NCBI RefSeq assembly: GCF_031458235.1
Contig: NZ_JAVDYB010000001.1
Location: forward strand, 1,509,001 to 1,573,000
Reading direction: 5' to 3'
From: Catenuloplanes atrovinosus
GTDB lineage: Bacteria; Actinomycetota; Actinomycetes; Mycobacteriales; Micromonosporaceae
DNA: 64,000 nucleotides
Part shown: one piece after another, positions 8,750-49,651 of the stretch
Position numbering within the stretch: the first letter of the stretch is position 1
How the letters are laid out: every line of letters begins with the position of its first letter
Program-made: the position numbers and the translations under genes
Notes under the pieces: model-generated
Seen by the model: the letters and a program-made list of their open reading frames with translations, nothing else
The model's database searches: none
What the model was told of the DNA's origin: nothing

Positions 8750-8932
8750 GGCTGGCAACGGTCTTCCCGCTCGGCGGTGCGCTTCGGAGCAGGCTTCAGT
8801 TACCCACGATGACGGAACGTGAAACAAAACGTCATTCAGTAACTATGCGTACTTTCACCACCACGTGGCGTGCCTGTGGTTTCGCTGAGGGCGGAGGGCG
8901 GATTCGAGCCCTCCGTGGCTAGCGTGGATCGC

Positions 8933-10696: not shown

Positions 10697-10715
10697 TGAA
10701 GTAGCGTTTCGCACC

Positions 10716-34639: not shown

Positions 34640-35578
34640 TCAGGCGACGACCGCGCGCGGCGCGCTGCACGCCGTGACGATCTCGTCGAGCACCCGCGCC
34701 GCCTCCTCGTGCGGCACCTGGCAGGTCCCGGCCGCGAGGTGACCGCCGCCGCCGTACCGCAGGCAGATCGAGCCGACGTCCACCGGCGAGCTGCGGTCCA
34801 CGATCGACTTGCCGACCGCGAACACCGTGTTCAGCTTCTGCCGTCCCCAGATCACGTGCACGGAGACCCGCGCCTCCGGATAGAGCGCGTAGACCATGAA
34901 CCGGTTGCCCGCGTGGATGATCTCCTCGTCCCGCAGGTCCACCACGACCACGTCGTTGGTGATCGTGCTGACCCGCTTGAGCTGTGCCACGAAGAGTTCC
35001 GACTGGTCCCGGTAGAGCCGCACCCGCTCGGCCACGTCCGGCAGCGCCAGGATCTGCTCCACGTCCTGGTGGTGCAGGCAGGCGTCGATCAGCTGCATCA
35101 TGAGCTGGTAGTTCGAGATCCGGAAGTTCTGGAACCGGCCCAGTCCGGTGCGGGAGTCCATCAGGTAGTTGAGCAGCGTCCAGCCGGTCGGCCGGAGGAT
35201 CTCCTCCACGCTGTACGCGGCAGAGTCCGCCTTGTCGACCGCGTCCATCAGGTCGAACGACAGGTCCGGGAAACGGGCCACGCCGCCGTAGTAGTCGTAG
35301 ACCACGCGCGCGGCCGACGGCGCGCTCGCGTCGATGACGTGGTTGGCCGGCTTGCCCTCGACCCGCAGCGTCTCGGAGTGGTGGTGGTCGAAGACCAGGT
35401 GCGCCTGTGGTGCGTACGGCAGGTTGGTCAGGATGTCGGTCGGCCGGATGTCCACGACGCCGTCCTGCACGTCCTTGGGGTGCACGAAGAGCACGTCGTC
35501 GATCATGTCGAGCCGGCGCAGCAGCACCGCGCAGACCAGGCCGTCGAAGTCGCTCCGGGTCACCAGCCGATGCCTCAC
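34640..35578 (-). CDS. DHH-family phosphoesterase
   Basis: The 312-residue protein has the DHH-type metal sites: TRSDFDGLVCAVLL near the N-terminus, FDHHHSE near residue 65, DKADSAAYS, and the C-terminal DHHA1-like GGGGHLAAGTCQV. Relatives include oligoribonuclease NrnA, c-di-AMP phosphodiesterases and exopolyphosphatases; the substrate is not clear here. A GTG at 35578 follows GAGGGACC. Confidence 0.88.
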   Translation of the reverse strand: MRHRLVTRSDFDGLVCAVLLRRLDMIDDVLFVHPKDVQDGVVDIRPTDILTNLPYAPQAHLVFDHHHSETLRVEGKPANHVIDASAPSAARVVYDYYGGVARFPDLSFDLMDAVDKADSAAYSVEEILRPTGWTLLNYLMDSRTGLGRFQNFRISNYQLMMQLIDACLHHQDVEQILALPDVAERVRLYRDQSELFVAQLKRVSTITNDVVVVDLRDEEIIHAGNRFMVYALYPEARVSVHVIWGRQKLNTVFAVGKSIVDRSSPVDVGSICLRYGGGGHLAAGTCQVPHEEAARVLDEIVTACSAPRAVVA

Positions 35579-35630
35579 GTGGGTCCCTCCGGGCCGCTCG
35601 CAGTATTCACCACGGCTCCCATCGGCCCGT

Positions 35631-36377
35631 TCAGTGACGTCCTGAGCGCTTTTGCTCCCTCCTTCCGGCGACCCGGGCGGCCGTCATCGCGTCCCCGACC
35701 GCGGCCCCGCCCTGGTCGTTGTTGAGGAACAGGTAGGCGTCGTCGTCACCGAACGTCTCGTCCAGCCGCCGCACCCACGACCCGAGCGCGTCCCGGCCGT
35801 AGTGCGGCCACGGCGACGCCCGCCCCTCGTGCAGCCGCAGGTAGCCGAAGTCCGTGGTCCGCCAGCGCGGCGTCAGCGGCCGGCTGCGCCGGTCCGCCCA
35901 GCACAGCGCGGCCCCGCGCCGCTCCAGCAGCCGCCGCGTGGCCGGCGTCCACCAGCTCGGATGCCGCGGCTCGACCGCCACCCGCACCCCGCGCGGGAAC
36001 TGCCGCAACGTCTCGTCCAGCGCGTCCAGGTCGATCTGCAGGTTCGGCGGCAACTGCACCAGCACCGGTCCCAGCTTCTCGCCGAGCGCCTCCGCCCGTC
36101 CCATGAACCGCGCCACCGGCTCGGCCGGCTCCCGCAGCCGCTTCACGTGCGTCAGGTACCGGCTCATCTTCACCGCCACCCGGAAGTCCCGCGGGGTGCG
36201 CGCCCGCCAGTCCGCGAACGTATCCCGCTCCGGCAGCCGGTAGAACGCCCCGTTCGCCTCCACCGCCCCGAACCGCTCCGCGTAGTGCTCCAGCCAGAGT
36301 CGCTGCGGCAGCCGCATCGGATAGAACCGGCCGCGCCAGTCCTTGTACTGCCATCCCGACGTCCCGACGAGGATCAC
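35631..36377 (-). CDS. DUF72 family protein
   Basis: The 248-residue protein has the DUF72 TIM-barrel-like pattern: VGTSGWQYKDWRGRFYP at the start, then VEANGAFYRLPERDTFADWRARTP and VRVAVEPRHPSWW. The function of the family is unknown. The start is a GTG at 36377. It lies 53 bp upstream of the DHH gene on the same strand. Confidence 0.88.
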   Translation of the reverse strand: MILVGTSGWQYKDWRGRFYPMRLPQRLWLEHYAERFGAVEANGAFYRLPERDTFADWRARTPRDFRVAVKMSRYLTHVKRLREPAEPVARFMGRAEALGEKLGPVLVQLPPNLQIDLDALDETLRQFPRGVRVAVEPRHPSWWTPATRRLLERRGAALCWADRRSRPLTPRWRTTDFGYLRLHEGRASPWPHYGRDALGSWVRRLDETFGDDDAYLFLNNDQGGAAVGDAMTAARVAGRREQKRSGRH

Positions 36378-36407
36378 CTTCGGTGATTACCCACAAACCA
36401 TGATTTT

Positions 36408-36490
36408 CCCACTCCCGGCGTGGTCACCCCCGCGTGCTCCCGCGGGCACCGGTCGTCGCCGGCGCTCCTCCCTGCCGGTCCCGCGGCGGT
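36408..36490 (+). repeat. Dispersed intergenic element, copy 2
   Basis: The blocks CCCACTCCCGGCGTGGTC, GTGCTCCCGCGGGCACCGGT and CTCCTCCCTGCCGG recur in the same order at 19579-19630 (partly), and inverted at 46815-46900 and 61940-62030. Here it lies between the LacI gene (stop at 36578) and DUF72. No gene is seen in 36378-36577. Confidence 0.6.
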
Positions 36491-36577
36491 CCGGTCCGGT
36501 ACCCGGGGCCTTCTCGACCACGGATTTCGCCGTGCATCGGCCCCGCACGCCGCCACCGGGCGGGCATGGAACGGGTC

Positions 36578-37585
36578 TCAGGCCGTGCCGCGGGGGACGA
36601 GCCGGGTGGGGAGCGTGATGGGCGGTGGGGGAGCGGTGTCGGGGCTGGATTGGATCATGGAGATGAGGGCCTCGGCCGCGGCGGTGCCGAAGCCGGCGCG
36701 GTCCTGGGCGATCGTGGTGAGGCCGGGTGGCAGGAGCGCGGCCAGCTCGATGTCGTCGAAGCCGACGATCGCGAGGTCGCCGGGGACGCGGAGGCCGGCG
36801 TCGGTGGCGGCCTGGAGCGCGCCGACCGCCATCTCGTCGCCGGCCGCGAAGACCGCGGTGGGGGGCGTGTCGAGCCGCAGCAGGCGGTGCGTGGCGGCCC
36901 GGCCGCTGTCCAGGTAGTAATCACCCTCCACCACGTAATCCGGCGGTAGCGGGACGCCGTGCGCGGCCAGCTCCGCGCGGAAGCCGGCCAGCCGGTCGGC
37001 GCCGGGGCCGGGGCGGGACGGGCCGGATATCGTGGCTATCCGGCGGTGCCCGCGGTGCAGCAGGTGGGCGACGGCCTGCCGGGCGCCGCCCGCGTTGTCG
37101 GACGTGACGTAGGTGCAGCACGGCCCGGTCAGCGGCAGGTCCAGCGCCACGCAGGGGATGCCGGCGTCGGCCAGGGCGAGCACCGCCGGGTCGCGGCTGC
37201 CGTTGTCGATCAGGACCACGCCGTCCAGGTTGTGCCGCCGGACCGCCGCGAGATGCCGGTCGGGCGCGTCCGCGCCGGTGGCGAGCAGCAGCAGGTGCAG
37301 GCCGTGCGCGGAGAGCGCGGTCTTCAGCGCGACCAGGATCTCCTGGAGGAACGGGTGCCGCCAGCCGCTGCGCCGGTGGTCGGTGTCCCAGACCAGGCCG
37401 ATCATGTTCGACTTCTTGGTGGCGAGCGTGCGCGCGGACTCGTTCGGCAGGTAGCCGATCTCGGCGGCGGCGGCCTCGACGCGCTGCCGGGTGGCGCGGC
37501 TGACCACCTCCGGCGTGTTGAACACGCGCGAGACCGTGGCGACGGAGACGCCGCAGTGCCGGGCCAGTTCGCGGATCGTCGCCAT
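36578..37585 (-). CDS. LacI-family sugar-responsive regulator
   Basis: The 335-residue protein has an N-terminal LacI-type helix-turn-helix (TIRELARHCGVSVATVSRVFNTPEVVSRATRQRVEAAAAEIGYLPN) and a periplasmic-binding-like effector domain. The start MATIRE is preceded by GAGGTGGTGG. It diverges from a GH1 beta-glucosidase with 61 bp between starts, where a palindrome resembling a LacI operator lies. It probably represses that gene in the absence of a glucoside. Confidence 0.93.
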   Translation of the reverse strand: MATIRELARHCGVSVATVSRVFNTPEVVSRATRQRVEAAAAEIGYLPNESARTLATKKSNMIGLVWDTDHRRSGWRHPFLQEILVALKTALSAHGLHLLLLATGADAPDRHLAAVRRHNLDGVVLIDNGSRDPAVLALADAGIPCVALDLPLTGPCCTYVTSDNAGGARQAVAHLLHRGHRRIATISGPSRPGPGADRLAGFRAELAAHGVPLPPDYVVEGDYYLDSGRAATHRLLRLDTPPTAVFAAGDEMAVGALQAATDAGLRVPGDLAIVGFDDIELAALLPPGLTTIAQDRAGFGTAAAEALISMIQSSPDTAPPPPITLPTRLVPRGTA

Positions 37586-37612
37586 GACCACCACCTCACC
37601 ACAGGAAGGCTA

Positions 37613-37626
37613 TGTAACCGGTTTCA
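37613..37626. promoter_or_regulatory. LacI-type operator between lacI-like and bgl genes
   Basis: TGTAACCGGTTTCA reads as a near-palindrome with the core AACCGGTT at 37616-37623. It lies between the divergent starts, the usual place for a LacI-family operator. The assignment is by position and symmetry. Confidence 0.6.
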
Positions 37627-37646
37627 GGCAGCGTACCATCGTGCCC

Positions 37647-39044
37647 ATGAGCCTGATGGAGATAGATGAGCGTGAGAAGCCGAGGCTACCGGACGTGCCG
37701 GCCGGCTTCGTGTGGGGCACGGCGACGGCCGCGTATCAGATCGAGGGCGGTGCGGCCGAGGACGGGCGCGGGCCGTCGATCTGGGACACGTTCACCCGCG
37801 TGCCCGGCGCCATCGCGGACGGCAGCAGCGGCGACGTGGCGTGCGACCACTACCACCGCTGGGCCGAGGACGTGGACCTGCTCGCCGAGCTCGGCGCGGA
37901 CGCGTACCGTTTCTCGATCTCCTGGTCCCGGGTCCTGCCCACCGGCAGCGGCGCGGTCAACCAGGCCGGGCTGGACTTCTACCGGCGGCTCACCGACCGG
38001 CTGGCCGAGCGCGGCATCCGCCCGTTCGTGACGCTCTACCACTGGGACCTGCCGCAGGCGCTGGAGGAGCGCGGCGGCTGGCGGTCCCGGGACACCGCGG
38101 AGCGGTTCGCCGAGTACGCGGGCGTGGTGGCGGACGCGCTCGGCGACCGGGTGCACGACTGGATCACGCTCAACGAGCCCTACTGCTCCAGCATCACCGG
38201 GTACGCGGAGGGCCGCCACGCGCCCGGCACGCGCGAGGGCCACGGCGCGCTCGCCGCCGTGCACCACCTGCTGCTCGGCCATGGCCTGGCCACCCGGGTG
38301 CTGCGCGAGCGCCGCCCGGACGCGCGCGTCGGCATCACGCTCAACCTCTCGCCGGCCGTGCCCGCCAGCGGCGACGAGGCCGACCTGGCCGCCGCCGCCC
38401 GGCAGGACCTGCTGGTCAACCGCCAGTTCACCGATCCGGTGCTGGCCGGCGCGTACCCGGCGGGCCTGACCGAACTCTACGACGGCGTCACCGACTTCGG
38501 CTTCCGCCGGGACGGGGACCTGGAGATCATCTCCGCGCCGCTGGACTTCCTCGGCGTCAACTACTACTACCGCATCCACGTGGCGGACGCGCCGTTCGCC
38601 GAGCCGGACCCGGCGCGGCGCTCCGCGTACGACATCGGGGTCCGCACGTTCAAGCCGGACGGCGTGCCGGTCACCGACCTCGGCTGGCCGATCGAGCCCG
38701 AGGGCCTGCGCGCCACGCTCACCGGCCTCGCCGACCGCTTCCCGGCCCTCCCGCCGATCTACGTCACCGAGAACGGCCGCGCCGAGCTGGCCCCCGGCCC
38801 GGTCCCGGACCCGGAGCGCATCGACTTCGTCGCCGGCCACCTGGCCGCCGTCCGCGCCGCGATGGACGCCGGCGTCGACGTGCGCGGCTACTTCTACTGG
38901 TCCCTGATCGACAACTTCGAGTGGGCGCGCGGCTACGGCCCCCGCTTCGGCCTGGTCCACATCGACTACGCGACCGGCACCCGCACCCCCAAGGAGAGCT
39001 TCCACTGGCTGCGCGCCGAACTGCGCTCCCGCCGTACCGGCTGA
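37647..39044 (+). CDS. GH1 beta-glucosidase
   Basis: The 465-residue protein is a family 1 glycoside hydrolase. The acid/base is E177 in TLNEP and the nucleophile E375 in YVTENG. The start motif FVWGTATAAYQIEGG and the WDLPQALEERGGW motif are typical. It hydrolyses terminal beta-linked glucosides such as cellobiose. No signal peptide is present, so it is cytoplasmic and needs an importer that is not in this window. It is probably controlled by the divergent LacI protein. Confidence 0.95.
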   Translation: MSLMEIDEREKPRLPDVPAGFVWGTATAAYQIEGGAAEDGRGPSIWDTFTRVPGAIADGSSGDVACDHYHRWAEDVDLLAELGADAYRFSISWSRVLPTGSGAVNQAGLDFYRRLTDRLAERGIRPFVTLYHWDLPQALEERGGWRSRDTAERFAEYAGVVADALGDRVHDWITLNEPYCSSITGYAEGRHAPGTREGHGALAAVHHLLLGHGLATRVLRERRPDARVGITLNLSPAVPASGDEADLAAAARQDLLVNRQFTDPVLAGAYPAGLTELYDGVTDFGFRRDGDLEIISAPLDFLGVNYYYRIHVADAPFAEPDPARRSAYDIGVRTFKPDGVPVTDLGWPIEPEGLRATLTGLADRFPALPPIYVTENGRAELAPGPVPDPERIDFVAGHLAAVRAAMDAGVDVRGYFYWSLIDNFEWARGYGPRFGLVHIDYATGTRTPKESFHWLRAELRSRRTG

Positions 39045-39056
39045 TGGCGTGCGGGT

Positions 39057-39082
39057 CCTGCTCCTCGTGCGGGGGGAGCAGG
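39057..39082. terminator. Terminator hairpin between convergent genes
   Basis: The arms CCTGCTCC (39057-39064) and GGAGCAGG (39075-39082) are perfect complements. It lies between the convergent beta-glucosidase (ends 39044) and the methyltransferase gene (ends 39097). Confidence 0.55.
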
Positions 39083-39096
39083 GCCCGGCGGTGCCG

Positions 39097-39987
39097 TCAC
39101 GCCGGCGGGCGGACGGGTGGGCGGCCCAGGGTGGTGGCGATCGTCGCGATGGCGGCGGGGCCGACGCGGCAGCAGCCACCGATCAGGTGGGCGCCGGTGG
39201 GGATGCCGGCCGGCAGCGTGACCGGGCCGGTCCAGGCGCGGGTGGTCGCGTCCCAGGTCTCGCCGCTGTTGGGGTAGACGACGACGGGTTTGCCGCCGCC
39301 GGCCGCCCGTGCGACGGGGACGGCCGCGGCCGCGTCGGCCGGGGTGCAGCAGTTGACGCCGGTGGCGATGATCGCATCCACTCCGCTGACCAGGGCGAAG
39401 GCCTCGGACAAGGGCTGGCCGGCGCGGGTCCGGGAACCCTCGACGGTGTAGGACAGCCAGGCCGGTACGCCGAGGCCGTCCAGCGCGAGCAGCAGCGCCT
39501 CGGCCTCGCGGGTGTCGGGGACGGTCTCCAGGGCGAGCACGTCGGGGCCGGCCTCGGCGAGGATCTCCAGGCGCGGGCGGTGGAAGGCGGCCAGCCGGCG
39601 CACGCTCAGGCCGTAGTCGCCGCGGTATTCGGAGCCGTCGGCCAGCATCGCGCCGTACGGGCCGGCGGACGCGGCCACCCAGGCGGCACCGCCGGCGGCC
39701 TCGCGGGCCAGCGCCACGCTACGGCGCAGCAGGGCCGCGGCCTCGGTGGAGCCGATGCCGGCGCGGGCGAAGCCGGGCAGCGTGGCCTGGTAGCTGGCGG
39801 TGGTGAGCACCTGCGCGCCGGCGCGCAGGTAGGCGGTGTGCGCGGCGACGATCGCGGCCGGGTCGTCGCGCAGCAGCCGGGCCGACCACAGGCCGCCGGA
39901 CAGGTCCGCGCCCGCGGCCTCGAGCTGCGTGGCGAGGCCGCCGTCCAGCACCACCGGGCCCGCGGCCAGCGCGTCTGCGAGTGTCAC
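39097..39987 (-). CDS. mmuM: Homocysteine S-methyltransferase
   Basis: The 296-residue protein has the zinc-thiol methyltransferase motifs GVNCC and GGCCR with a conserved N-terminal VLDGGLATQLE. It transfers a methyl group from S-methylmethionine (or SAM) to homocysteine to form methionine. The GTG start overlaps the stop of the upstream membrane-protein gene by 4 bp (GTGA), so it appears translationally coupled to the FtsK-like operon. There is no obvious functional link. Confidence 0.92.
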   Translation of the reverse strand: MTLADALAAGPVVLDGGLATQLEAAGADLSGGLWSARLLRDDPAAIVAAHTAYLRAGAQVLTTASYQATLPGFARAGIGSTEAAALLRRSVALAREAAGGAAWVAASAGPYGAMLADGSEYRGDYGLSVRRLAAFHRPRLEILAEAGPDVLALETVPDTREAEALLLALDGLGVPAWLSYTVEGSRTRAGQPLSEAFALVSGVDAIIATGVNCCTPADAAAAVPVARAAGGGKPVVVYPNSGETWDATTRAWTGPVTLPAGIPTGAHLIGGCCRVGPAAIATIATTLGRPPVRPPA

Positions 39988-40637
39988 CCGACGTTCTGTA
40001 CCACGATCGCCAGGCCGGCCGCCACCAGCGCGGACACCACCAGCACGGTCACCGAGCCGGGTTCCAGCACGGCGCCGCGCCGGTCCGCGTAGACCTTCGC
40101 GGCCAGCAGCGCGATGATCGGGCCGAGCGCGAGCGTGAGCAGCAGCGCCAGCACCGGCAGCACCACGGCGAGGTCGCCGCCGAGGGAGCGGCCGGCGGCC
40201 CGCACGCCGAAGCCGGCCAGCCCGGCCAGCACGCCGCCGAGCACGCCCAGCGCGACCAGCACGTTCCGGGTCTGCTCGGGCAGCCCGGGGCGGCGGCCGG
40301 AGCGGGCCAGCTGCGCGTGCGCGTCCAGCAGCCACTCCTCGGCGCCGCGCGGGTCGCCGTCCGGCGGCGTCAGCGGCGTGGGGTGGTGACCCACGCGGCC
40401 GAGGCGTGCGCGGGCCTCCTCCCAGGCGTCGTAGACCCGCATGTCGATGTCCTGGAAGTGGTGTTCGGCGGCCCGCATCCCGGCCTCGGCGTCGGTGGCG
40501 CGCTGCTCGGCCTCGCGGTACTTCGTCTCCGCGTTCGCCACGGTGCGTGCGTACCACTCGTGCGCCTCGGCGCGGTGCGTGTCCACCTCCGCGTCGATGC
40601 CGGCCAGGCCACGGATCAGCTCACGGTAGGAAGCCAT
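39984..40637 (-). CDS. Coiled-coil membrane protein, partner of the FtsK-like ATPase
   Basis: The 217-residue protein has a charged helical N-terminal half (about 15-75; RGLAGIDAEVDTHRAEAHEW and AETKYREAEQRATDAEAG), then three hydrophobic helices in the C-terminal half (LVALGVLGGVLAGLAGF, VVLPVLALLLTLALGPIIALL, VTVLVVSALVAAGLAIVV). Its ATG overlaps the ATPase stop by one base (TGATG). It could anchor the soluble ATPase at the membrane. I recognise no family. Confidence 0.75.
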   Translation of the reverse strand: MASYRELIRGLAGIDAEVDTHRAEAHEWYARTVANAETKYREAEQRATDAEAGMRAAEHHFQDIDMRVYDAWEEARARLGRVGHHPTPLTPPDGDPRGAEEWLLDAHAQLARSGRRPGLPEQTRNVLVALGVLGGVLAGLAGFGVRAAGRSLGGDLAVVLPVLALLLTLALGPIIALLAAKVYADRRGAVLEPGSVTVLVVSALVAAGLAIVVQNVG

Positions 40638-43492
40638 CAGGTCCATCCGTACGGGATGATCGCCTCGGCGACGCGGTGCACCGCCCGGTCGAAGAACAGC
40701 CCGCGCCACGGCCGCGGATACCAGGCCGGGCCGCGGCCGTCCGGGTAGAACTGGGACAGCTCGCTGCCGTGCACGTCCAGCGCCAGCCACGCGCCGATCG
40801 CGTCCGTCCGCGAGCCGATGCCGCCCAGGTCGTCGCGGAGCCGGCCGGGCTGCCGCCACCAGCCGAGCACGTGCGTGTGGTGCTCCGGGCCCGCGGTGAG
40901 GATTCGCCGCAGGTCGTCGAGGCCGGTCGGGGCGGCGGCCGGTTGATCGGGGCCGGCGGGTTTCGGCGCGGCCCCGGCGTGCGCGCCGACCGGCGGGATG
41001 ATGCCGCGCCGCTGAGCCGGGGCCGGACCCGAGCGGGCCAGCCTGGGGGTCACCGCGTCCACCGCGTAGAGCAGCAGGAAGTGCGGTTCGTCGCCCTCGT
41101 CCTCCAGCCCGGCCGCGGTCGCGCGCAGCAGCGCGGTCACGTTGTCCGCGTGGTAGACCGCGGTCCGGTCCGGCGGCAGGATGCCGTGCAGCGCGTCCAC
41201 GGCCAGCGCGGCGGACGCGTCCAGCACCGCGACGGAGAAGCGCGCGCCGCCGTCCGGGTACTGCGCGGCCAGCGAGCGGGCCGCCGCGTTCAGCACCGCG
41301 CAGGCCTCGTCCGCCCGGGTGCCGAGCACGGCCAGGTTGCGGCCGGGCGCGCGGTTCAGCGCCAGCCGCGCGGACCGCGCCTGCACGTCGATCGCCTCGC
41401 CGAGCAGCGCGACCGGCATGCCGGTGGCCCACCGCCGCCCGGCCGGGTCCGCGCCCGGGGCGAGCGACACGAAGTCCGGCGCGGTCTCCAGGCGCGGGAT
41501 CGCGTCGCCGTCGAACAGGCGCGGGGCCAGCGAGCCTTCGGGCCGCCGGGTCCACAGCTCGCGTTGCAGCGAGCCCCACGCCTCCCGGTCGCCGGCCGGC
41601 GGCACGCGCAGGATCCGGTTCGCCTCCGGCGCGCCGGAGTCCGGGTTGACGATCGCGTGGTGGCGGGGCAGCGTGTCCGCGGCCGTGTTCTGCTCCGGCA
41701 GCACCTTGCGCGCCTTGGGCAGTGCGATCCGCAGCGAGAACTGGGCGACCAGCGACGGCCGGCCCCACAGCGCCTCGATGCCGGAGACGTCCTGGCTGGC
41801 CAGGACCAGGTGGATGCCCTGCGAGCGGCCGCGGCGGGCCAGGTCGTCGAGCAGGTTGACCGACTCGGTGACCACCGCGTCGCGGCCGTTGAGCAGCACC
41901 TGGAACTCGTCGATCACGGCCACGATCCGCGGCCAGTGCCCGGCCGGGTCCTCCGCGCGCAGCTCCGGCAGCTTGGTCGCGTCGAACGCCTTGGCCGCGT
42001 CCGCCCGGCGCCGCAGCTCCTCGCCGAGGAACCGCAGCAGCGCCAGCCCGAACTCGCGGTCGGTGTTCACGTTCACCCCGACCAGGCGTACGTGCGGCAG
42101 CCAGCTCGGGTCCCGGCGGCCCGGCGCGAACCGGGCGAACGACACGCCCTCCTTGAAGTCGAGCAGGTAGAACTCCAGCTCGCCGGGGGAGTAGCGGGCC
42201 GCGAGCGCGCCCATCCAGGCGTAGATCAGATTGGTCTTGCCGGTGCCGGACGGGCCCGCGATCAGCGCGTGCGGCGGGTAGTCGGCCAGCGTCACCGGCA
42301 CCGGGCGGCCCTGCGCGTCCTCGCCGACCGGCGCGACCAGGCCCTCCGCGGAGGACTCCCGCCAGAACTCGGCCGGGAGCAGGTCGGCGAACCGGACCGG
42401 GGCCGGACCCTCGGCCGCCCGCCGGGCCAGCGCCGTGGACGTCTCGGTGACCAGCCGCGCCGGCGGTGGCGGGTCGAGCACCACGGGCAGCCCGCGCAGG
42501 CCGCCGACGCGCACCCGGCCGCCGGTGCCGGTGCGTACCCGCTCCACGGCCGGGCCGGACGGCATCGGCAGGCCGCGCACGATCAGGTGCACGCCGCAGG
42601 CCACGCCGGTGCGCGCGATGCGTTCCAGCTGCGCCTGCTCGTGCGGGGTCAGCTCGTCCTTGCGGCCGGCGCCGAGCAGCACCGCGATCCGCCACGGCTC
42701 CGGGCGGCGGCCCTCGGCACGGGCCAGCTCGCGCAGCGACGTGTACGCGCCGGCCAGCACCTTCTCGTTGATCCGCCGGATGTGGTCGACCAGGCCGTCG
42801 AGCAGCCCGGACAGGCCGCCGGGACCGACGAACGTGAGCAGTCCCGCGTTCGCCAGCGCGGCGAAGCCGGCCAGGCCGCCGCCGAGCTGCTCCGGGTCGT
42901 ACCCGGTGATGTGCACCTGGCCCGGCGGGGCGGTGCCGAGCGCGCGCAGCAGCAGCGTGGTGACGACGCGGTCGCCGGTCTCGGCGTATCCGGGCGCGTG
43001 CGCCGGCTCGGCGTCGCCCGCGGCTATCTGCCGCGCGGTCGCGGCGTCCTCCGCCTCGGGCAGCGTGGACAGGTGCACGTGCGCACGGTCAAGGAGCGGG
43101 ACCAGCGCGGGTACGGGTGTGGTGCGGGCGATCCGGACCGCGCCGATCCGCAGCTCCGGCGCCACCTGCCCGCGCTCGGCCGGCGTCGGCTTCCACTCGT
43201 CCCAGCCGTCCCCGGCCGCGCCCGGCGCCTCCCGGTCGCCGGCCTCCGCCGCCTGCCGGGTCAGCGTGGCCAGCTTCGTCGCGTACAGCTCGTCGATCTC
43301 GGCCAGCCGGGCGTCGCGCTGCCGGGCCGCGCGCACCGGCACCTCGTCCGCGACCGTGCCGAGCCGGTCCAGCCGGGCCAGGGCGGTGTCCAGCTCGCGC
43401 TCCGCGTCGGCCAGGTCGCCGCGGGCGCGGCCGAGCGCGTAGGACAGCGCACGGCGCACCTGGTCGACGGAGGTGGTCCGCGAGTCAGGCAT
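40637..43492 (-). CDS. FtsK/SpoIIIE-type ATPase, EccC-like, soluble
   Basis: The 951-residue protein has a helical N-terminus (about 1-85), a first FtsK-like domain without a P-loop (about 190-340), an ATPase with Walker A GPSGTGKT (413-420) and Walker B IVAVIDEF (523-530), and a third, degenerate domain near 700-800. No membrane segment is seen, unlike FtsK or EccC proteins. The multi-domain arrangement resembles EccC, the motor of type VII secretion, more than chromosome-segregating FtsK. It overlaps the preceding gene by 8 bp and the next by 1 bp. The substrate is unknown. Confidence 0.85.
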   Translation of the reverse strand: MPDSRTTSVDQVRRALSYALGRARGDLADAERELDTALARLDRLGTVADEVPVRAARQRDARLAEIDELYATKLATLTRQAAEAGDREAPGAAGDGWDEWKPTPAERGQVAPELRIGAVRIARTTPVPALVPLLDRAHVHLSTLPEAEDAATARQIAAGDAEPAHAPGYAETGDRVVTTLLLRALGTAPPGQVHITGYDPEQLGGGLAGFAALANAGLLTFVGPGGLSGLLDGLVDHIRRINEKVLAGAYTSLRELARAEGRRPEPWRIAVLLGAGRKDELTPHEQAQLERIARTGVACGVHLIVRGLPMPSGPAVERVRTGTGGRVRVGGLRGLPVVLDPPPPARLVTETSTALARRAAEGPAPVRFADLLPAEFWRESSAEGLVAPVGEDAQGRPVPVTLADYPPHALIAGPSGTGKTNLIYAWMGALAARYSPGELEFYLLDFKEGVSFARFAPGRRDPSWLPHVRLVGVNVNTDREFGLALLRFLGEELRRRADAAKAFDATKLPELRAEDPAGHWPRIVAVIDEFQVLLNGRDAVVTESVNLLDDLARRGRSQGIHLVLASQDVSGIEALWGRPSLVAQFSLRIALPKARKVLPEQNTAADTLPRHHAIVNPDSGAPEANRILRVPPAGDREAWGSLQRELWTRRPEGSLAPRLFDGDAIPRLETAPDFVSLAPGADPAGRRWATGMPVALLGEAIDVQARSARLALNRAPGRNLAVLGTRADEACAVLNAAARSLAAQYPDGGARFSVAVLDASAALAVDALHGILPPDRTAVYHADNVTALLRATAAGLEDEGDEPHFLLLYAVDAVTPRLARSGPAPAQRRGIIPPVGAHAGAAPKPAGPDQPAAAPTGLDDLRRILTAGPEHHTHVLGWWRQPGRLRDDLGGIGSRTDAIGAWLALDVHGSELSQFYPDGRGPAWYPRPWRGLFFDRAVHRVAEAIIPYGWT

Positions 43493-44489
43493 CGGCGTCG
43501 GGGTCCCGGTACGTCGGCACCGTCTCCGGCGCGGACGGGTTCAGCGAGCCGGGGTCGCGGCCGAGGCGCTTGAGCAGCACGCCGGTGAGCACCGCACCGG
43601 CCACGGCCGCGTCCGCCGGGTGCGCGCGCTCGGCCTCGTTGCGCCGGCGCCCGTCCTCGGTGCGCTGCTCGCCGTCGCCGTCCGGCTCGTCCTCCCGGGA
43701 CTTGCGCTGCTCCGGGGGCACCCGGCAGACCCGCTCGGCCAGCGTGTCGATGGTGGTGGCGGGCAGGCCGGGGAGCAGTTCACGCAGCTGCTCGGCCTCC
43801 TTGCGTACCCGCGGCAGGTCCTCGGGTCTGGGCTCGTGTCCCAGCAGGTCCGCGGTCAGCCGGTGCAGCAGCGCGGGGGTGAGCGCGGCCAGGCCCAGCC
43901 CGACCGGGGGCTCGACCTCGCCCAGCTCGCGGCGCATGCGGCCGGGGCTGTCCGCGCCGACGGACGCGGCGACGCGACGCATCAGGTCCGCGCTGTCCGT
44001 GGCCGCGTCGCGGTCGTGCCGGTCCCGCTCGCCCGGCGTGGCCCGGCCCGGGCCGCCGGCCGCGCCGGCCGACTCGTCGGCGCTCGCCTCGCCGCCGGTG
44101 AGGACCGTGACGCGCGCCTTCCACCAGCGGCCGAGCGGCGCGGCGTCCGGCGTCCGGGGCTGCTCTTGCGGACGGTCGCGCTCCTCGAACGCGACCGCGT
44201 CCCGCCAGCTGCCGTCCGCGCCGCGGGTGGCGTCGTGGGCCAGGCCGATCGCGGCGAGGTACTCGCTGATCGCGTCCTGCGCGCTGCGCAGCGCGAACAC
44301 GGCGTGCTCGGCGTGCTCGGTGGCGTTGGCCAGCTGCGGCACGCCCATCGGCTGGGAGGACGCCTGGCGGACCCAGACCAGCAGCTCGGACGCGACCCGC
44401 AGGCGCTCCAGCGCGGCGAGGACCAGCCCGACCGGGAGTTCGTCGTTGGTCGCGCGGATGCGCGCGCCCAGCTCTTCGAGCAGCGACAT
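43485..44489 (-). CDS. Helical protein of unknown function in the FtsK operon
   Basis: The 334-residue protein has an N-terminal helical region of about 90 residues (SLLEELGARIRATNDELPVG, then ATEHAEHAVFALRSAQDAISEYL) that resembles WXG100-like helical folds without the W-x-G motif. The middle is acidic and disordered, followed by a helical part near 200-260. The last 80 residues are polar and charged. I recognise no family. It lies between the WXG100-like gene (10 bp upstream) and the ATPase (8-bp overlap), so it probably works with both. Confidence 0.7.
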   Translation of the reverse strand: MSLLEELGARIRATNDELPVGLVLAALERLRVASELLVWVRQASSQPMGVPQLANATEHAEHAVFALRSAQDAISEYLAAIGLAHDATRGADGSWRDAVAFEERDRPQEQPRTPDAAPLGRWWKARVTVLTGGEASADESAGAAGGPGRATPGERDRHDRDAATDSADLMRRVAASVGADSPGRMRRELGEVEPPVGLGLAALTPALLHRLTADLLGHEPRPEDLPRVRKEAEQLRELLPGLPATTIDTLAERVCRVPPEQRKSREDEPDGDGEQRTEDGRRRNEAERAHPADAAVAGAVLTGVLLKRLGRDPGSLNPSAPETVPTYRDPDADA

Positions 44490-44499
44490 GGCGTCGGTG

Positions 44500-44760
44500 C
44501 TACAGCGTCGCCGTGTAGGTCTGCGCCTGTTCCACCGCGGCGAGCGTGGCGGTGTAGCAGTTCTCCAGATCCACGGTGGCCTGCTGCAACGACGCGTACG
44601 CCGCCTGGGTGGCCTGGTGGCCGGAGCCGTCCCATGCCGAAGCCAGACTCATCTGCGCCTCCGAGAGTTTCTCGTTGGCCGCGCTGATCGCCACCTGGGA
44701 CTCGGTCACCTGCTGGATCGCGGCCTCGATGGCGGCGCGGACCTCAGCGACACTGGCCAC
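44500..44760 (-). CDS. WXG100-like (ESAT-6-type) small protein
   Basis: The 86-residue protein is nearly all helical with W43-D44-G45 at its midpoint (SLASAWDGSGHQATQAAY), matching the helix-WxG-helix hairpin of the WXG100 superfamily. The typical C-terminal Y-x3-[DE] export signal is not found. The start is a GTG after GGGGAGGGG. It is the first gene of the operon. It could be a secreted substrate, an adaptor or a structural subunit. Confidence 0.8.
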   Translation of the reverse strand: MASVAEVRAAIEAAIQQVTESQVAISAANEKLSEAQMSLASAWDGSGHQATQAAYASLQQATVDLENCYTATLAAVEQAQTYTATL

Positions 44761-44997
44761 TCGAACCCCTCCCCAACTTCTGCGGGAAGATCCTAACGGA
44801 GGCGGGTGTCCTCCGTGGAGCGCCCCGGCGTCTCGTAGGGACAATCGCCGGCGAATGTCGTGTATCGGGATAGCGCGACACTGCGTCTCCGTACCGTAAC
44901 CACTCGTCACTTCGCTGCGCCACTCGAAACACGGCGAATAGTTGCTCACGCCGTCTTTCATTCATCGCACGGATCGTGAAACCTCAGCTTTGAGGCC
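44761..44997. promoter_or_regulatory. Spacer upstream of the WXG100/FtsK operon
   Basis: This 237-bp region has no gene. On the minus strand it must contain the promoter of the WXG100-like gene; TTGTCC near 44842 is a weak -35-like match but I cannot fix a -10. A small hairpin CCTCA-GCTT-TGAGG (44982-44995) near the stop of the NYN gene could be its terminator. The composition is more AT-rich than the flanks around 44880-44975. Confidence 0.35.
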
Positions 44998-45360
44998 TCA
45001 TCGGACGGATCGCGGGCCGAGCACGCCCGCGCCCAGCGCGGTCACCCGCTCGCGCAGGCCACGGTCGGCGGTCACCACCACCACGGCCGGGTCCCCGGCG
45101 TCGCGCACCAGGTCGACGATGGTGTCGTCGCCGGAGCCGGGCGCGTCCACCACGGACACCCCGGGCGCGGCGCCGATGCCCTTCGCACGGCCCTCCACCA
45201 CGAGCACCACATCCAGCGGCGGCGGCAGGCCGGGCAGTCCGGCGGCGGCGATCGGGCGCAGCCGCTCGCGCAGCCGCACGGCGGCCCCGGCGCGGTCGCG
45301 CCACCACCCGTCCGGCACCGAACCGACCACGTTCGCCCCGTCCACCACCAGCAACGTCAT
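44998..45360 (-). CDS. NYN/PIN-domain nuclease-like protein
   Basis: The 120-residue protein has the NYN (YacP-like) pattern: LLVVDGANVVGS at the start, DVVLVVEGRAKG, SGDDTIVDLV and VVVVTADRGLRERV. Conserved Asp residues likely bind Mg for RNA cleavage. The ATG overlaps the LysR stop by 4 bp (ATGA). The targets are unknown. Confidence 0.88.
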   Translation of the reverse strand: MTLLVVDGANVVGSVPDGWWRDRAGAAVRLRERLRPIAAAGLPGLPPPLDVVLVVEGRAKGIGAAPGVSVVDAPGSGDDTIVDLVRDAGDPAVVVVTADRGLRERVTALGAGVLGPRSVR

Positions 45361-46361
45361 GCCAACGAGACTAGGCGCTCGTCGGCGCGCGCCGGGCCGT
45401 TGCCGCCCTGCACGCCGAGTCTCGGCTTGCCCGCCACCCACTCCAGGTACCGCGTGTTCCGCGCGACCGACTCCTGGTACGACGCCGTGGCCAGCTCCAC
45501 CACCCGGTGCGCGAACCCGGCCGCGCCGCTCTCCGGGTGCCAGCCGACCAGGTGCCGCCAGCGCAGCGGCGTGCCGGCCAGCGGCACGGTCACCAGGCCC
45601 GGCGGCGGCCGGAACGTGGGCTGGCAGATGCCGATCGCGGCGCCGGACTCGACCATGTCGATCGCGGCCCGCACGTCGATCTCGAACACCTGGCGTGGCG
45701 TGAACCCGGCCCGTGCGCACGCCGCCGCGAAGCAGTCCGCGAAGCAGCCGTCGCCGGGCGCGGCCACCCAGTTGTCGTCCGCCAGGTCGCCGAGGGCCAC
45801 CTCGTCCGCGCCGGCCGCCTTGTGGCTCTCCGGCAGCATCACGCACACGCCGTCCACCGCGACCGCGGCCCAGGCCAGCCCGTACTCCGCGGACGGCGAC
45901 GAGTCGCCGCACATGCCGAGCAGCGCGAAGTCCAGCCGGCCGCCGGCCAGTTTCTCGTACAGCTCGTCCCGCAACCACGACGAGTACGTGGTGATCTGCG
46001 CCTGCGGCTGGTCCTCCGCGAGCCGGCGCAGCAACCCGCCCACGATCGGGCCCATCGTGGAGCCGATCCGGTACCGCGTCATGGCGCTGCCGTTGCCCGC
46101 CAGCCGCGCCGCCTCGTCCTGCAGCCCCTTCATCGCCGGCAGCAGCACCCGCGCGCGGGCCAGCACCAGCTCGCCGAGCGCGGTCGGCCGCGCCCCGCGC
46201 CGGTCCCGGTCGAACAGCGGGCCGCCGAGCGCGCGCTCGATGCGTTGCAGCTGCGCCGTCAGCGCGGGCTGGGCGAGCCCCAAGGTCGAGGCCGCCTTAG
46301 TGACACTCCCCGTTTCCGCAATCGTGCAGACCACCTTGAGATGCCGCAGCTCCAGGTTCAT
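45357..46361 (-). CDS. LysR-family regulator
   Basis: The 334-residue protein has an N-terminal winged helix (LELRHLKVVCTIAETGSVTKAASTLGLAQPALTAQLQRIERALGGPLFDRDRRG) and a LysR substrate-binding domain. No divergent target gene is adjacent: the upstream spacer (46362-46913) is gene-free. It is translationally coupled to the NYN gene, which is an unusual partner. Confidence 0.9.
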   Translation of the reverse strand: MNLELRHLKVVCTIAETGSVTKAASTLGLAQPALTAQLQRIERALGGPLFDRDRRGARPTALGELVLARARVLLPAMKGLQDEAARLAGNGSAMTRYRIGSTMGPIVGGLLRRLAEDQPQAQITTYSSWLRDELYEKLAGGRLDFALLGMCGDSSPSAEYGLAWAAVAVDGVCVMLPESHKAAGADEVALGDLADDNWVAAPGDGCFADCFAAACARAGFTPRQVFEIDVRAAIDMVESGAAIGICQPTFRPPPGLVTVPLAGTPLRWRHLVGWHPESGAAGFAHRVVELATASYQESVARNTRYLEWVAGKPRLGVQGGNGPARADERLVSLA

Positions 46362-46814
46362 AGCGTGACGGTAGGACGCGCGGGGGAGTAAGCGAAAGAG
46401 TTTCAGGCAATGAAGTCCGGCCGAAAATATGAGCCGGAGTTCGCGGGCGCCCGTCGATCAGTTCACCGCCGCCTTGTGCTGCGGTAACCCGCCGGTACCG
46501 CGCGTCCCGGGGGCACCCTACGGTGCAGAACAAGGGAAACCCCGATCCCACCTGCTGATCCACTCAGGCCTTCGGGGTGCGCCGCCGCCTGCGGCTTTGT
46601 GGGTGATCGTCACCCGATCGGGGGCTTCCCACCGGCGCCGGGCGTACCCATTCGGATCGACTCGCACCGTTGCCGCGACAACCTCCGATGGCGCCGATCC
46701 GTTCACCATTTCTTCTCATCGCAATTCGGAGGGTTCAATAGTTGAAACAATCCCGTGCTGCCCCAAGGTCAACGCCTGCCGGGCGAGAATCCCACAGCTG
46801 GTGATCTTCGGTGA
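46362..46814. other. Gene-free spacer
   Basis: About 450 bp between the LysR start and the dispersed element at 46815. Short open frames here lack family similarity, ribosome sites or consistent codon bias. An AT-richer patch near 46705-46755 (TTTCTTCTCATCGCAATTCGG and AATAGTTGAAACAATCC) could hold a promoter, but I see no gene it would serve on the plus strand. Nothing else is clear. Confidence 0.45.
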
Positions 46815-46900
46815 CCCGCCACGGATCCGACCGGGAGGCCGGCCACGGCCGACCGGTGCCCGCTCCCGGCTTGCGGGCAGCGGCCACGCCGGAAGCGGGA
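46815..46900 (-). repeat. Dispersed intergenic element, copy 3
   Basis: Read on the minus strand it shows CCCGCTTCCGGCGTGGCC, GGGAGCGGGCACCGGTCGGCC and CGGCCTCCCGGTCGG, the same blocks as the element at 61940-62030. It begins about 14 bp after the hemerythrin stop, in the direction of that gene. Confidence 0.55.
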
Positions 46901-46913
46901 CGATCAAAAGGGT

Positions 46914-47546
46914 TCAGGAGTCCTTGAGGTCCGACGGGTACGTCGGCCGGCCGGTGACCGCGTCGAGGACCTTGTCGACGACGGCGACCGCGGGGTCGAC
47001 GACCTTGTTCCACGGCGGCGTGGCCGGGGTGCCCGGGTGCGGGCGCGTGGGCGCGGCCTCCTCGGCGATCTGCACGCGGTTGCCGAGGCGGATCAGGTCG
47101 GCCTCGCTGGCGGCGTCCGCGAGGCCGGGGAGGAGCCGGCCGGTGGCGGTCTCCGCATGCCGGGCGAGTTGCCCGCAGATGGTGCCGGCGATGCGGTCGA
47201 AGTCCGGGTCGGCGGGCTTGATGGAGGAGAGCGACCGGAGCGTGAGCAGGATCTCGCGGTCCTCGGCGATCTCCCGCTCGGCCAGCGTGCGGCCGTCGTC
47301 CAGGGTGCCGGCGACGGCGGGGTAGAGGTACTGCTCCTCGGCGGAGAGGTGCCGGGTGACGGTGGCGATGACGACCTCGGCCACCCGGGCGCGCTCGTCC
47401 TCGGGCACGGACTCGTCGGTCAGCCGGGAGCAGAGCTCGGCGATGCGGCGGTGCTCGTCCGCGAGGACCTTGACGACCTCCTCACCGGCCGGCTTCCACG
47501 TCTCGTCGCCGGGGGTGCTGGGGAGCGGGGGAAGGGGGAGAGCCAC
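46914..47546 (-). CDS. Hemerythrin-domain protein
   Basis: The 210-residue protein has the helical hemerythrin HHE pattern: VVKVLADEHRRIAELC near the start, VIATVTRHLSAEEQYLYPAVAG, and GQLARHAETATGRLLPGL. These motifs bind a di-iron centre that senses or handles O2, NO or iron. The last 60 residues are Pro/Ala-rich without a clear fold. Function unknown. Confidence 0.88.
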   Translation of the reverse strand: MALPLPPLPSTPGDETWKPAGEEVVKVLADEHRRIAELCSRLTDESVPEDERARVAEVVIATVTRHLSAEEQYLYPAVAGTLDDGRTLAEREIAEDREILLTLRSLSSIKPADPDFDRIAGTICGQLARHAETATGRLLPGLADAASEADLIRLGNRVQIAEEAAPTRPHPGTPATPPWNKVVDPAVAVVDKVLDAVTGRPTYPSDLKDS

Positions 47547-47664
47547 GGAGTCCTCCTAGAGACGGGCTGGCGGACGCGTGATTCCCGGGGCGCTCGACCG
47601 GCAAACGCCCGCGCGGTCACGCGGCGAGCGCCGCGCCGTCAACGGGGGATGGTAAGAAAGGCGG

Positions 47665-48966
47665 ATGAGCGACGCGGGTGAGGTTGTCGGGATCTGCCGG
47701 GACCTGCTGCGGATGGACACCAGCAACACGGGTGATCCGGAGACCAGCAAGGGTGAGCGGGTGGCCGCGGAGTACGTGGCGGAGAAGCTCTCGGCGGCCG
47801 GCATCGAGCCGGTCGTGCACGAGACGCTGCCCGGCCGGACCTCACTGGTGGCGCGCATCCCCGGCGCCGACCCCGGCCGCGGCGGCCTGCTGGTGCACGG
47901 GCACCTGGACGTGGTGCCGGCGGACGCGAGCGAGTGGTCGGTGGATCCGTTCGCGGGCGAGATCCGGGACGGCTACCTCTGGGGCCGCGGCGCGGTGGAC
48001 ATGAAGGACTTCGACGCGATGGTGCTGGCCGTGGTCGGGCAGTGGCATCGGGAGGGGTACGTGCCGCCGCGCGACATCGTGCTCGCGTTCACCGCGGACG
48101 AGGAGGCGGGCGGCCGGTACGGCGCGAAGGCGCTGGTCGAGGAGCGCGCGGAGCTGTTCGAGGGGGTGACCGAGGGGATCGGCGAGGTCGGCGGCTACTC
48201 CTTCACGGTCCACGACGACCTGCGCCTCTACCTGATCGAGACCGCGCAGAAGGGCATGGACTGGCTGCGCCTGCACGCCAAGGGCCGTCCGGGGCACGGC
48301 TCGATGGTGCACGACGACAACGCGGTGACCGCGCTCGCGGCGGCGGTGGCCCGGGTCGGCGCGCACAAGTTCCCGCTGACCGTGACTCCCACGGTGCGCA
48401 CGTTCCTGGAGCAGACGACCGAACTGCTCGGCATCGAGCTGGACCTGGACGACCCGGAGAAGGCGATCGCGAAGCTCGGCCCGATCGCGAACATCATCGG
48501 CGCGACCGTGCGGAACACGGCGAACCCGACGCGCCTGGACGCGGGCTACAAGGACAACGTGATCCCGGGCCGGGCGTCGGCGACCATCGACTGCCGGACG
48601 CTGCCGGGCCAGCAGGAGCTGTTCTACGAGCAACTCCGCGAGCTGGTCGGGCCGGACATCGAGATCGAGTCGCGGGACCCGCAGGGGGCGCTGGAGACCT
48701 CGTTCGACGGCGCGCTGGTGGACGCGATGGCGTCCGCGCTGAAGGCGGAGGACCCGGGCGCCCGCGCCGTGCCGTACATGCTGTCCGCGGGCACCGACGC
48801 GAAGCACTTCAACCGGCTCGGCATCCGCTGTTTCGGCTTCGCGCCGCTGCGGTTGCCGGCCGACCTGAACTTCTCCGCGCTGTTCCACGGCATCGACGAG
48901 CGCGTTCCGGTGGAGGGTCTAGAGTTCGGCACGCGAGTGCTGGACCGATTCCTGCGCGGTTGCTGA
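47665..48966 (+). CDS. M20-family metallopeptidase
   Basis: The 433-residue protein has the M20 dizinc peptidase motifs: LLVHGHLDVVP (about 77), GRGAVDMKDFDAM (about 112) and TADEEAGGRYGAK (about 150), and a dimerisation domain. Family members cleave dipeptides or N-acyl amino acids. The substrate is unknown. It begins 118 bp from the divergent hemerythrin gene and lies 28 bp before the next gene. Confidence 0.92.
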   Translation: MSDAGEVVGICRDLLRMDTSNTGDPETSKGERVAAEYVAEKLSAAGIEPVVHETLPGRTSLVARIPGADPGRGGLLVHGHLDVVPADASEWSVDPFAGEIRDGYLWGRGAVDMKDFDAMVLAVVGQWHREGYVPPRDIVLAFTADEEAGGRYGAKALVEERAELFEGVTEGIGEVGGYSFTVHDDLRLYLIETAQKGMDWLRLHAKGRPGHGSMVHDDNAVTALAAAVARVGAHKFPLTVTPTVRTFLEQTTELLGIELDLDDPEKAIAKLGPIANIIGATVRNTANPTRLDAGYKDNVIPGRASATIDCRTLPGQQELFYEQLRELVGPDIEIESRDPQGALETSFDGALVDAMASALKAEDPGARAVPYMLSAGTDAKHFNRLGIRCFGFAPLRLPADLNFSALFHGIDERVPVEGLEFGTRVLDRFLRGC

Positions 48967-48994
48967 GTACACCCCTAGATCTGAGGAACCTTCC

Positions 48995-49651
48995 ATGACT
49001 GATGTGCAATCGACCGACCTCGACGCCGCGCTGGAGCGCGTGTTCGAGGCGGCGCGGGCCCACCTCGCGGCCGTCAAGGCGAGCGGCGGCGCGGTCGAGG
49101 ACGACAACGTCGGCAAGGCGTACGTCGCGCTGAACAACGCCTCGTTCGAGTACGACGAGCTGCTGCTCGACGCGTTCAACGAGGTCACGCCGTGGGACGT
49201 CAAGCCGATCGACGAGGACGAGGCGGCGCACGACCACGAGCACGAGCACGAGCTCCCGACCGACCCGTACCCGAACGCGATCGCGGTCCGCCAACGCCGG
49301 GACTACCGGGTGCCGAGCGTCGCCGCGCTGATCCGGGTCGCCGAGTCCGCCCGCCGCGCCGCCGCCGGCCCGGACGCGGACGACAAGGAGCTGGGCGAGC
49401 CGATCACCTCGGTCGGCGAGGCCGTGCTGGAGCTGCTGCAGAGCGGCGACGGCTCGCTCGGCGAGCTGGACATCCCGGAGCTGGAGCCGCTCGACGGCCT
49501 GGTCACCGTGACCGAGGTCGCGGCGCCGCTGGACCTCGACGCGTTCGAGGAGGAGGACGGCGACGGCCCGTTCGCCCCCGGCCCGGAGGACCGGCTGCTG
49601 GGCCGGCTGGACGAGCACCCGTTCCTGGAGCTGCCCGAAGAGGAGCGCTAG
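48995..49651 (+). CDS. Acidic hypothetical protein
   Basis: The 218-residue protein is rich in Glu/Asp and Ala with an HDHEHEHE stretch near residue 79. It begins DLDAALERVFEAARAHLAAVK, helical. The pattern resembles a conserved actinobacterial protein sometimes annotated primosomal protein, but there is no evidence for that activity. Function unknown. It lies 28 bp after the peptidase gene and converges on a DUF5703 gene. Confidence 0.7.
   Translation: MTDVQSTDLDAALERVFEAARAHLAAVKASGGAVEDDNVGKAYVALNNASFEYDELLLDAFNEVTPWDVKPIDEDEAAHDHEHEHELPTDPYPNAIAVRQRRDYRVPSVAALIRVAESARRAAAGPDADDKELGEPITSVGEAVLELLQSGDGSLGELDIPELEPLDGLVTVTEVAAPLDLDAFEEEDGDGPFAPGPEDRLLGRLDEHPFLELPEEER

Follow-up and report, generated by a model that had tools for sequence, protein, structure and literature searches.

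What can a motor of the type VII secretion kind do when it stands beside small hairpin proteins and a single membrane protein? Type VII export is thought to require a large membrane complex, and the locus described here offers a far smaller set of four genes. The locus lies in a window of 64,000 nucleotides, the whole stretch of DNA that was analyzed, from Catenuloplanes atrovinosus (Micromonosporaceae; genome of 8.9 Mb in a single contig), whose nearest named relative, Catenuloplanes japonicus, carries an ATPase that is 88% identical. The favored answer, given a probability of roughly 0.45, is that the four genes may form a stand-alone, ESX-independent, type VII-related unit that exports or remodels hairpin proteins while tethered to the membrane.

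The four minus-strand genes (44760-39984) are packed as a tight unit (table 1). The open frames and a codon-based gene caller, which returned the same four genes, agree with an earlier note made from the sequence alone that described four genes in one direction joined by short gaps and overlaps. Gene 1 starts with GTG, has GGGGAGGGG five bases upstream of its start and is separated from gene 2 by 10 bp, and gene 2 overlaps the ATPase gene by 8 bp. Gene 4 encodes 220 amino acids when read from the ATG at 40646, or 217 from the ATG at 40637, which overlaps the stop codon of the ATPase gene by one base. From the gap upstream of gene 1 we infer a probable promoter region. A homocysteine S-methyltransferase gene (39097-39987, PF02574, E 3.7e-70) begins 4 bp inside gene 4, and ten neighboring proteins in the window belong to ordinary Pfam families or to none. 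Conservation of the gene order had been named beforehand as a test of the module, and 45 of 53 related loci have the hairpin gene first, then gene 2, the ATPase gene, and gene 4; the remaining eight are five paralogue loci (L071, L072, L074, L079, and L083), two loci at contig edges (L085 and L087), and L090.

Table 1. Features of the four-gene unit (positions within the window).
Feature	Coordinates	Strand	Basis
Gene 1: 86-aa helical hairpin protein, distant WXG100 relative, ends Y-T-A-T-L	44500..44760	-	PF06013 profile, alignment
Gene 2: 334-aa all-helical protein	43485..44489	-	Model, alignment
Gene 3: 951-aa soluble EccC-like ATPase	40637..43492	-	Pfam, NCBIfam, PDB, Foldseek, tree
Gene 4: coiled-coil protein, three predicted membrane segments	39984..40646	-	Hydropathy
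237-bp gap upstream of gene 1, before next same-strand gene	44761..44997	.	Probable promoter region

The ATPase has a single Walker A motif, the intact P-loop GPSGTGKT at residues 413-420 that had been pointed out before, and one Walker B motif (VAVIDEF at 524). Its layout consists of an N-terminal coiled-coil helix (residues 4-88, a single long helix in the predicted model), a degenerate domain (about 113-362), the P-loop domain (about 375-640), and a C-terminal degenerate domain (about 690-947). The statement that the protein lacks membrane helices holds, as hydropathy revealed no N-terminal hydrophobic segment and one marginal window at 754. The two degenerate domains had both been described as FtsK-like: the comparison with the central domain supports this for the N-terminal part as a worn copy of the same fold (hhalign probability 58.6, E 9.5e-5), but the case for the C-terminal part is weak (probability 2.5). 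A match of the C-terminal domain to EccC D3, which was expected, reached a profile probability of just 2.3. Because the ATPase model is poor in its central domain (pLDDT below 50 across 363-468), that domain was read from the sequence.

Searches by profile, sequence, and fold gave EccC/EssC proteins as the best matches, in line with the earlier proposal of a type VII-related soluble ATPase. The Pfam family FtsK_SpoIIIE (PF01580) matches residues 375-570 (E 5.9e-21), and the first NCBIfam match is EccCa (E 8.4e-23, 81 bits against a cut-off of 509), with the scores for both EccCa and EccCb far under cut-off. The best PDB sequence is EccC of Thermomonospora curvata (4nh0, E 5.2e-27), which also leads the Foldseek list, aligned along the length of the ATPase (E 9.8e-19, with TM-scores of only 0.28 and 0.31). 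Compared with the genome's six EccC proteins, the central domain is closest to D1 (E 3.3e-22), followed by D2 (1.9e-13) and D3 (7.8e-11), and a central-domain HMM matched the genome's own EccC D1 domains with E-values of 4.9e-17 to 2.2e-19 versus 1.3e-7 for the best own FtsK candidate, which is encoded by a separate gene. A tree built from 48 domain rows, of which 35 belong to the module family, sets this family apart from EccC D1, EccC D2, and FtsK (support 92/93, not starred); the place of FtsK is unsure because it is represented by a single row on a very long branch. As had been anticipated, the ATPase does not group with chromosome-segregation FtsK in the HMM scores or in this tree with its long FtsK branch; judged by its sequence, it is EccC-like rather than FtsK-like, yet it forms a branch of its own.

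The kinship of gene 1 to the WXG100 proteins is more distant than had been claimed. The protein matches PF06013 with E 8.6e-5 and 23.2 bits, under the curated cut-off of 27.3, and a match at E up to 0.1 was obtained for 11 of 29 relatives; DUF6244 weakly matches 15 of the 29 (best E 0.0014). The length of 86 residues and the W-D-G turn of the hairpin were described correctly for the window, but the W of W-x-G is present in just two of the 29 aligned hairpins, those of the window and of C. japonicus, with close relatives mostly reading L-D-G or L-E-G at this place, while G45 is invariant in all 29. With the W not conserved and the profile score below cut-off, the description of gene 1 as encoding a WXG100 protein in the strict sense is not supported. 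Direct reading bears out that it has no YxxxD/E export signal; a terminal YxxxL stands instead.

Gene 2 fits the description of a helical partner in that its product is all-helical and keeps its place in the conserved order. It has no match in Pfam, NCBIfam, or PADLOC at E up to 1. In its model, for which a PDB search at E 0.001 gave nothing, helices at residues 20-44 and 50-80 precede a C-terminal part that is also helical (about 120-309), and the stretches of about 160-260 and 290-320 are modelled well. The tyrosine of a Y-L-A-A-I sequence (Y77) is invariant in 34 gene 2 sequences. In f15, a different family from the same order, the ATPase gene directly follows two small genes of 86 and 81-83 aa, a layout read fully in five loci (L108, L109, L111, L112, and L113). 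Since gene 2 occupies the place of the second f15 hairpin and its model begins with these two helices, it is probably an extended hairpin protein.

The terminal YxxxL of gene 1 belongs to a wider pattern, [YF]xxx[LIV] at the last five residues, found in 86 of 103 hairpin-like genes near the ATPase (mostly close relatives) versus two of 59 controls farther away; the motif was seen first and counted later, and an amphipathic helix alone favors hydrophobic residues four apart. After clustering at 40% identity, the motif is present in 11 of 33 clusters compared with two of 32 controls, and 2000 shuffles of the 33 clusters gave a mean of 0.26 and a maximum of 4 with the motif. These 33 clusters take in plain non-hairpins and the small helical proteins of five distant loci (L105, L114, L136, L138, and L140), which are mostly W-x-D proteins and all lack the motif. 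Among the W-less hairpins kept by eye the motif occurs in 11 of 14 clusters (11 of 15 with a hairpin-like gene that lies downstream in L111); those without it among the 14 are both hairpins of L108 and one of the three of L107. Overall, a motif-bearing small gene on the same strand and at most four genes from the ATPase was found in 82 of 114 loci; the other 32 include contig ends, incomplete records, L099 (called too short), and L104 and L137 (hairpins farther off). Second and third copies of the family (L071 type, L097, L098, L115, and L116) and L131-L133 seem to be without a motif gene, and the terminal motif was not found in four W-x-G proteins near EccC genes of the window's genome.

The proposed coiled-coil protein with three possible anchoring helices was confirmed in gene 4 by three hydrophobic segments near residues 129, 165, and 198. 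More generally, of the genes that follow the ATPase in 112 loci, 109 share its strand, 99 lie within 60 bp of it, and 91 have one or more predicted membrane segments; over half of the 112 come from the window's own family. In a subgroup of f15 this gene encodes 118-139 amino acids and has no membrane segment, which means that an anchor encoded at the locus is not universal. Of 119 next genes, among which at least three records repeat the same gene, a gene 4 profile gathers 73, with none of 1210 controls; the 73 are copies in the window's own family plus L110. Contrary to expectation, homology of gene 4 was not detected across all lineages, as third copies (L098, L115, and L116) and other lineages fall outside the profile; beyond its own family and L110, gene 4 is a likeness of place and layout.

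Independence from ESX was assessed by searches for EccB and EccD. Both are found in 14 of 31 family-carrying genomes (EccD over cut-off in the same 14) and both are missing in the other 17, of which one is only 83% complete; a fifteenth genome gave a trace EccD match (E 9.4e-4). The absence of EccB and EccD from these 17 carriers argues that the unit does not need ESX. The window's genome itself has ESX, with six EccC-size ATPase genes, five EccB genes (with two of the six matches in a single frame), and five EccD genes over cut-off plus one below. Whole-genome searches place neither EccB nor EccD in the window, as stated earlier, the nearest being about 288 kb away, and in this genome the unit could cooperate with ESX.

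The membrane-tethered exporter or remodeller proposed above might operate as follows. The soluble ATPase is probably a hexamer, as in its superfamily, and its N-terminal coiled coil would dock on the coiled coil of gene 4 and so be held at the cytoplasmic membrane. The substrates or adaptors would be the gene 1 hairpin and the one at the N terminus of gene 2; the two are expected to pair, and the [YF]xxx[LIV] sequence may take the place of the YxxxD/E signal of ESX. ATP hydrolysis in the single active domain would then lead to export of the hairpin complex or to its remodelling at the membrane, with the helical C-terminal domain of gene 2 as a putative passenger or functional part. Neither a pore nor an effector-immunity pair nor an export signal could be recognized at the locus, and no evidence was found for the contact-dependent system that had also been suggested.

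A sister clade bears on what the motor handles. An Hsp70 gene lies on the same strand and at most 2.3 kb upstream of the ATPase gene in eight of 114 loci, with an upstream J-TPR relative in five and a GrpE relative in two (phmmer). Seven of the eight Hsp70 loci fall into one branch of eight rows in the tree (support 87/91, not starred); the eighth (L137) is outside the tree, and the last row of the branch (L101) starts near a contig end. Pfam recognized HSP70 in the three loci tested (L103, L104, and L107; E 4e-109 to 1e-120), TPR in L103 together with DnaJ over cut-off and in L107 together with DnaJ below cut-off, and GrpE in L107, where it overlaps the start of the ATPase. Neighbors of this kind point to protein handling rather than DNA handling. 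The full chaperone set is joined to the motor in L107 (6027-12564), from a genome of 1.8 Mb in the same phylum, where Hsp70, a zinc-ribbon J-TPR protein, GrpE, the ATPase, and three hairpins form one run. A small gene stands just upstream of the Hsp70-linked version in L099, L100, L102, and L103 (two families), which we take to be BldC-like.

The same chaperone genes are the main argument for a cytoplasmic remodeller without export, in which the ATPase would unfold or disassemble hairpin-marked complexes together with chaperones and the helices of gene 4 would only place the machine. The f15 subgroup without membrane segments is in keeping with this explanation. However, the phmmer search of the 114 loci found no Hsp70 near the Micromonosporaceae version, the closest family of the ATPase is a secretion motor, and most of the next genes do carry a membrane segment, and we consider a purely cytoplasmic role rather unlikely, though a serious alternative to the tethered exporter or remodeller. 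A broader scheme, also rather unlikely, would be a separate actinobacterial system for translocating or remodelling proteins: its soluble EccC-like motor, detached from the membrane part, would handle W-less hairpins through a terminal [YF]xxx[LIV] tag and, in the sister clade, would be fed by the clade's own Hsp70/J-TPR/GrpE cycle.

The distribution of the family bears on a role in conflict. At E 1e-40 the ATPase family was found in 87 of 101 genomes sampled from the Micromonosporaceae, a count that takes in second and third copies, and gene 2 was found in 71 of the 101 at E 1e-5. A class-wide alignment search gave an ATPase match at E 1e-80 or better in 47 of 296 genomes; the next best genome reached 1.8e-45, and weaker ones were mostly in frames of EccC size. 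Across the phylum at least five of 396 genomes had a match at E 1e-30 (two candidates scored per genome). A LysR gene lies upstream of the unit in 44 of 53 loci and 41 of the 53 have gene clusters in common on either side, which suggests inheritance together with the chromosome. With these shared flanks and the presence in 87 of 101 genomes, a mobile distribution was not found, and a mobile element was given low weight.

A conflict or defense module against invaders, with gene 4 or gene 2 as the effector, would resemble the WXG100/EssC-like extension linked to CoCoNuT systems, the ATPase of which appears to have the same layout as far as the accessible text describes it (PMC11090510). The central domain also resembles the PADLOC models Mads8 (E 4.7e-19) and SspH (3.3e-16), and two distant ATPase relatives (L105:7381-12130 and L114:7601-12613) have different small helical proteins as neighbors (W-x-D in L105), together with a coiled-coil protein that differs in its C-terminal part. 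Against this, the Mads8 and SspH matches span only the shared FtsK domain, none of ten neighboring proteins (34640-49651) matches PADLOC at E 0.001, and the distribution is that of a core-genome gene, which makes a defense role improbable. The C terminus of the coiled-coil protein in L105 and L114 reads NGYHRI and presumably recalls ParB-like domains, for which no Pfam match was found in this protein.

Further copies have other neighborhoods. The second family member of the window's genome (L097:7981-12014) consists of the ATPase and gene 4 beside a DUF4126 gene and has no hairpin beside the ATPase, as in L071, L072, and L074. The third (L098:8246-19901) is located near genes for a VirB4-like AAA_10 protein and an M23 peptidase, and similar neighbors recur at L115, where the family member (8925-11492) is without the searched Walker A pattern. 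In L131, L132, and L133 a downstream helical-looking protein of 201 amino acids and one of 122-142 replace the short hairpin.

A DNA translocase of the FtsK/HerA kind for segregation, sporulation, or conjugation, to which the superfamily membership (PF01580), the presence of FtsK, HerA, and TcpA in the Foldseek list, and the VirB4-like and M23 peptidase neighbors of the third copy would point, is the least probable explanation, given the much stronger EccC D1 scores, the separate gene and tree position of the genome's own FtsK candidate (on its very long branch), and the absence of an FtsK gamma domain among the Pfam matches of the ATPase at E up to 1; chromosomal FtsK, like a defense module, was given low weight.

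How the four-gene unit compares with known systems depends on the system chosen. ESX (T7SSa; EccBCDE, MycP, and EsxA/B) shares the FtsK-like motor beside hairpin proteins, with a central domain nearest to EccC D1. It differs in that the present locus is without EccB and EccD, the motor is soluble, the hairpins lack a conserved W, gene 1 lacks YxxxD/E, and the family also occurs in genomes without EccB and EccD. T7SSc-T7SSj (Garrett, Higginson and Palmer 2024; PMC11217815) likewise combine a WXG100 protein with an FtsK-like ATPase in a small set; their ATPase is membrane-bound and often accompanied by FHA domains, a YukD-like protein, or kinases; the window's ATPase is soluble, and no soluble one was found in the accessible part of their description. 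The Hsp70-linked sister clade resembles the GAP1-N2 conflict systems, which are centered on GTPases, in having Hsp70, GrpE, and DnaJ or TPR genes in one actinobacterial neighborhood (PMC7159879), whereas no WXG protein or EccC-like ATPase was found in the sections of that description that could be consulted.

The closest likeness is to stand-alone WXG100/FtsK-EssC-like operons, called "mobile versions of T7SS" in a table footnote from 2012 (PMC3482391) and including copies with only the middle ATPase domain active (PMC3482391; PMC11090510). The 2024 description of the CoCoNuT Type III-A extension, which cites an earlier paper for stand-alone copies, adds an N-terminal coiled coil, two WXG100 proteins of which one is W-less, and ATPases without membrane helices, so that a different mechanism is considered likely (PMC11090510). 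To the extent that these sources are accessible, the features shared with the present unit are the N-terminal coiled coil, the lack of an ATPase membrane helix, the one P-loop in the middle domain, and small WXG-type proteins with or without the W. The earlier view that the arrangement differs from known loci therefore stands for ESX and needs qualifying for these operons. The differences are that the window's unit lies in shared flanks and is not mobile, that no VWA, CoCoNuT, or nuclease-fusion gene was recognized beside it, and that gene 4 has membrane helices and gene 2 an extension. Actinobacteria are absent from the list in the 2012 footnote (PMC3482391), and the comparison of the present branch with the published operons covers their descriptions in the accessible text. 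A search of the openly readable literature, partly in extract and with subscription papers outside its scope, found no description of the actinobacterial branch or of the Hsp70 link.

On these partial sources, the general kind, a solo WXG protein with an FtsK/EssC-like ATPase in which only the middle domain is active, is already known (2012, 2024). What appears to be new is a chromosomally fixed, ESX-independent branch in soil actinomycetes with its own partners and, in its sister clade, Hsp70. A set of this small size, widespread and also found in genomes without EccB and EccD, keeps the motor and its membrane partner as separate proteins and would reveal how much the motor and the hairpins can achieve alone. 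For this branch, gene 4 is a concrete candidate answer to the missing membrane helices of the ATPase noted in the accessible text on the CoCoNuT extension (PMC11090510), and the Hsp70-linked sister clade suggests a motor that is fed by chaperones.
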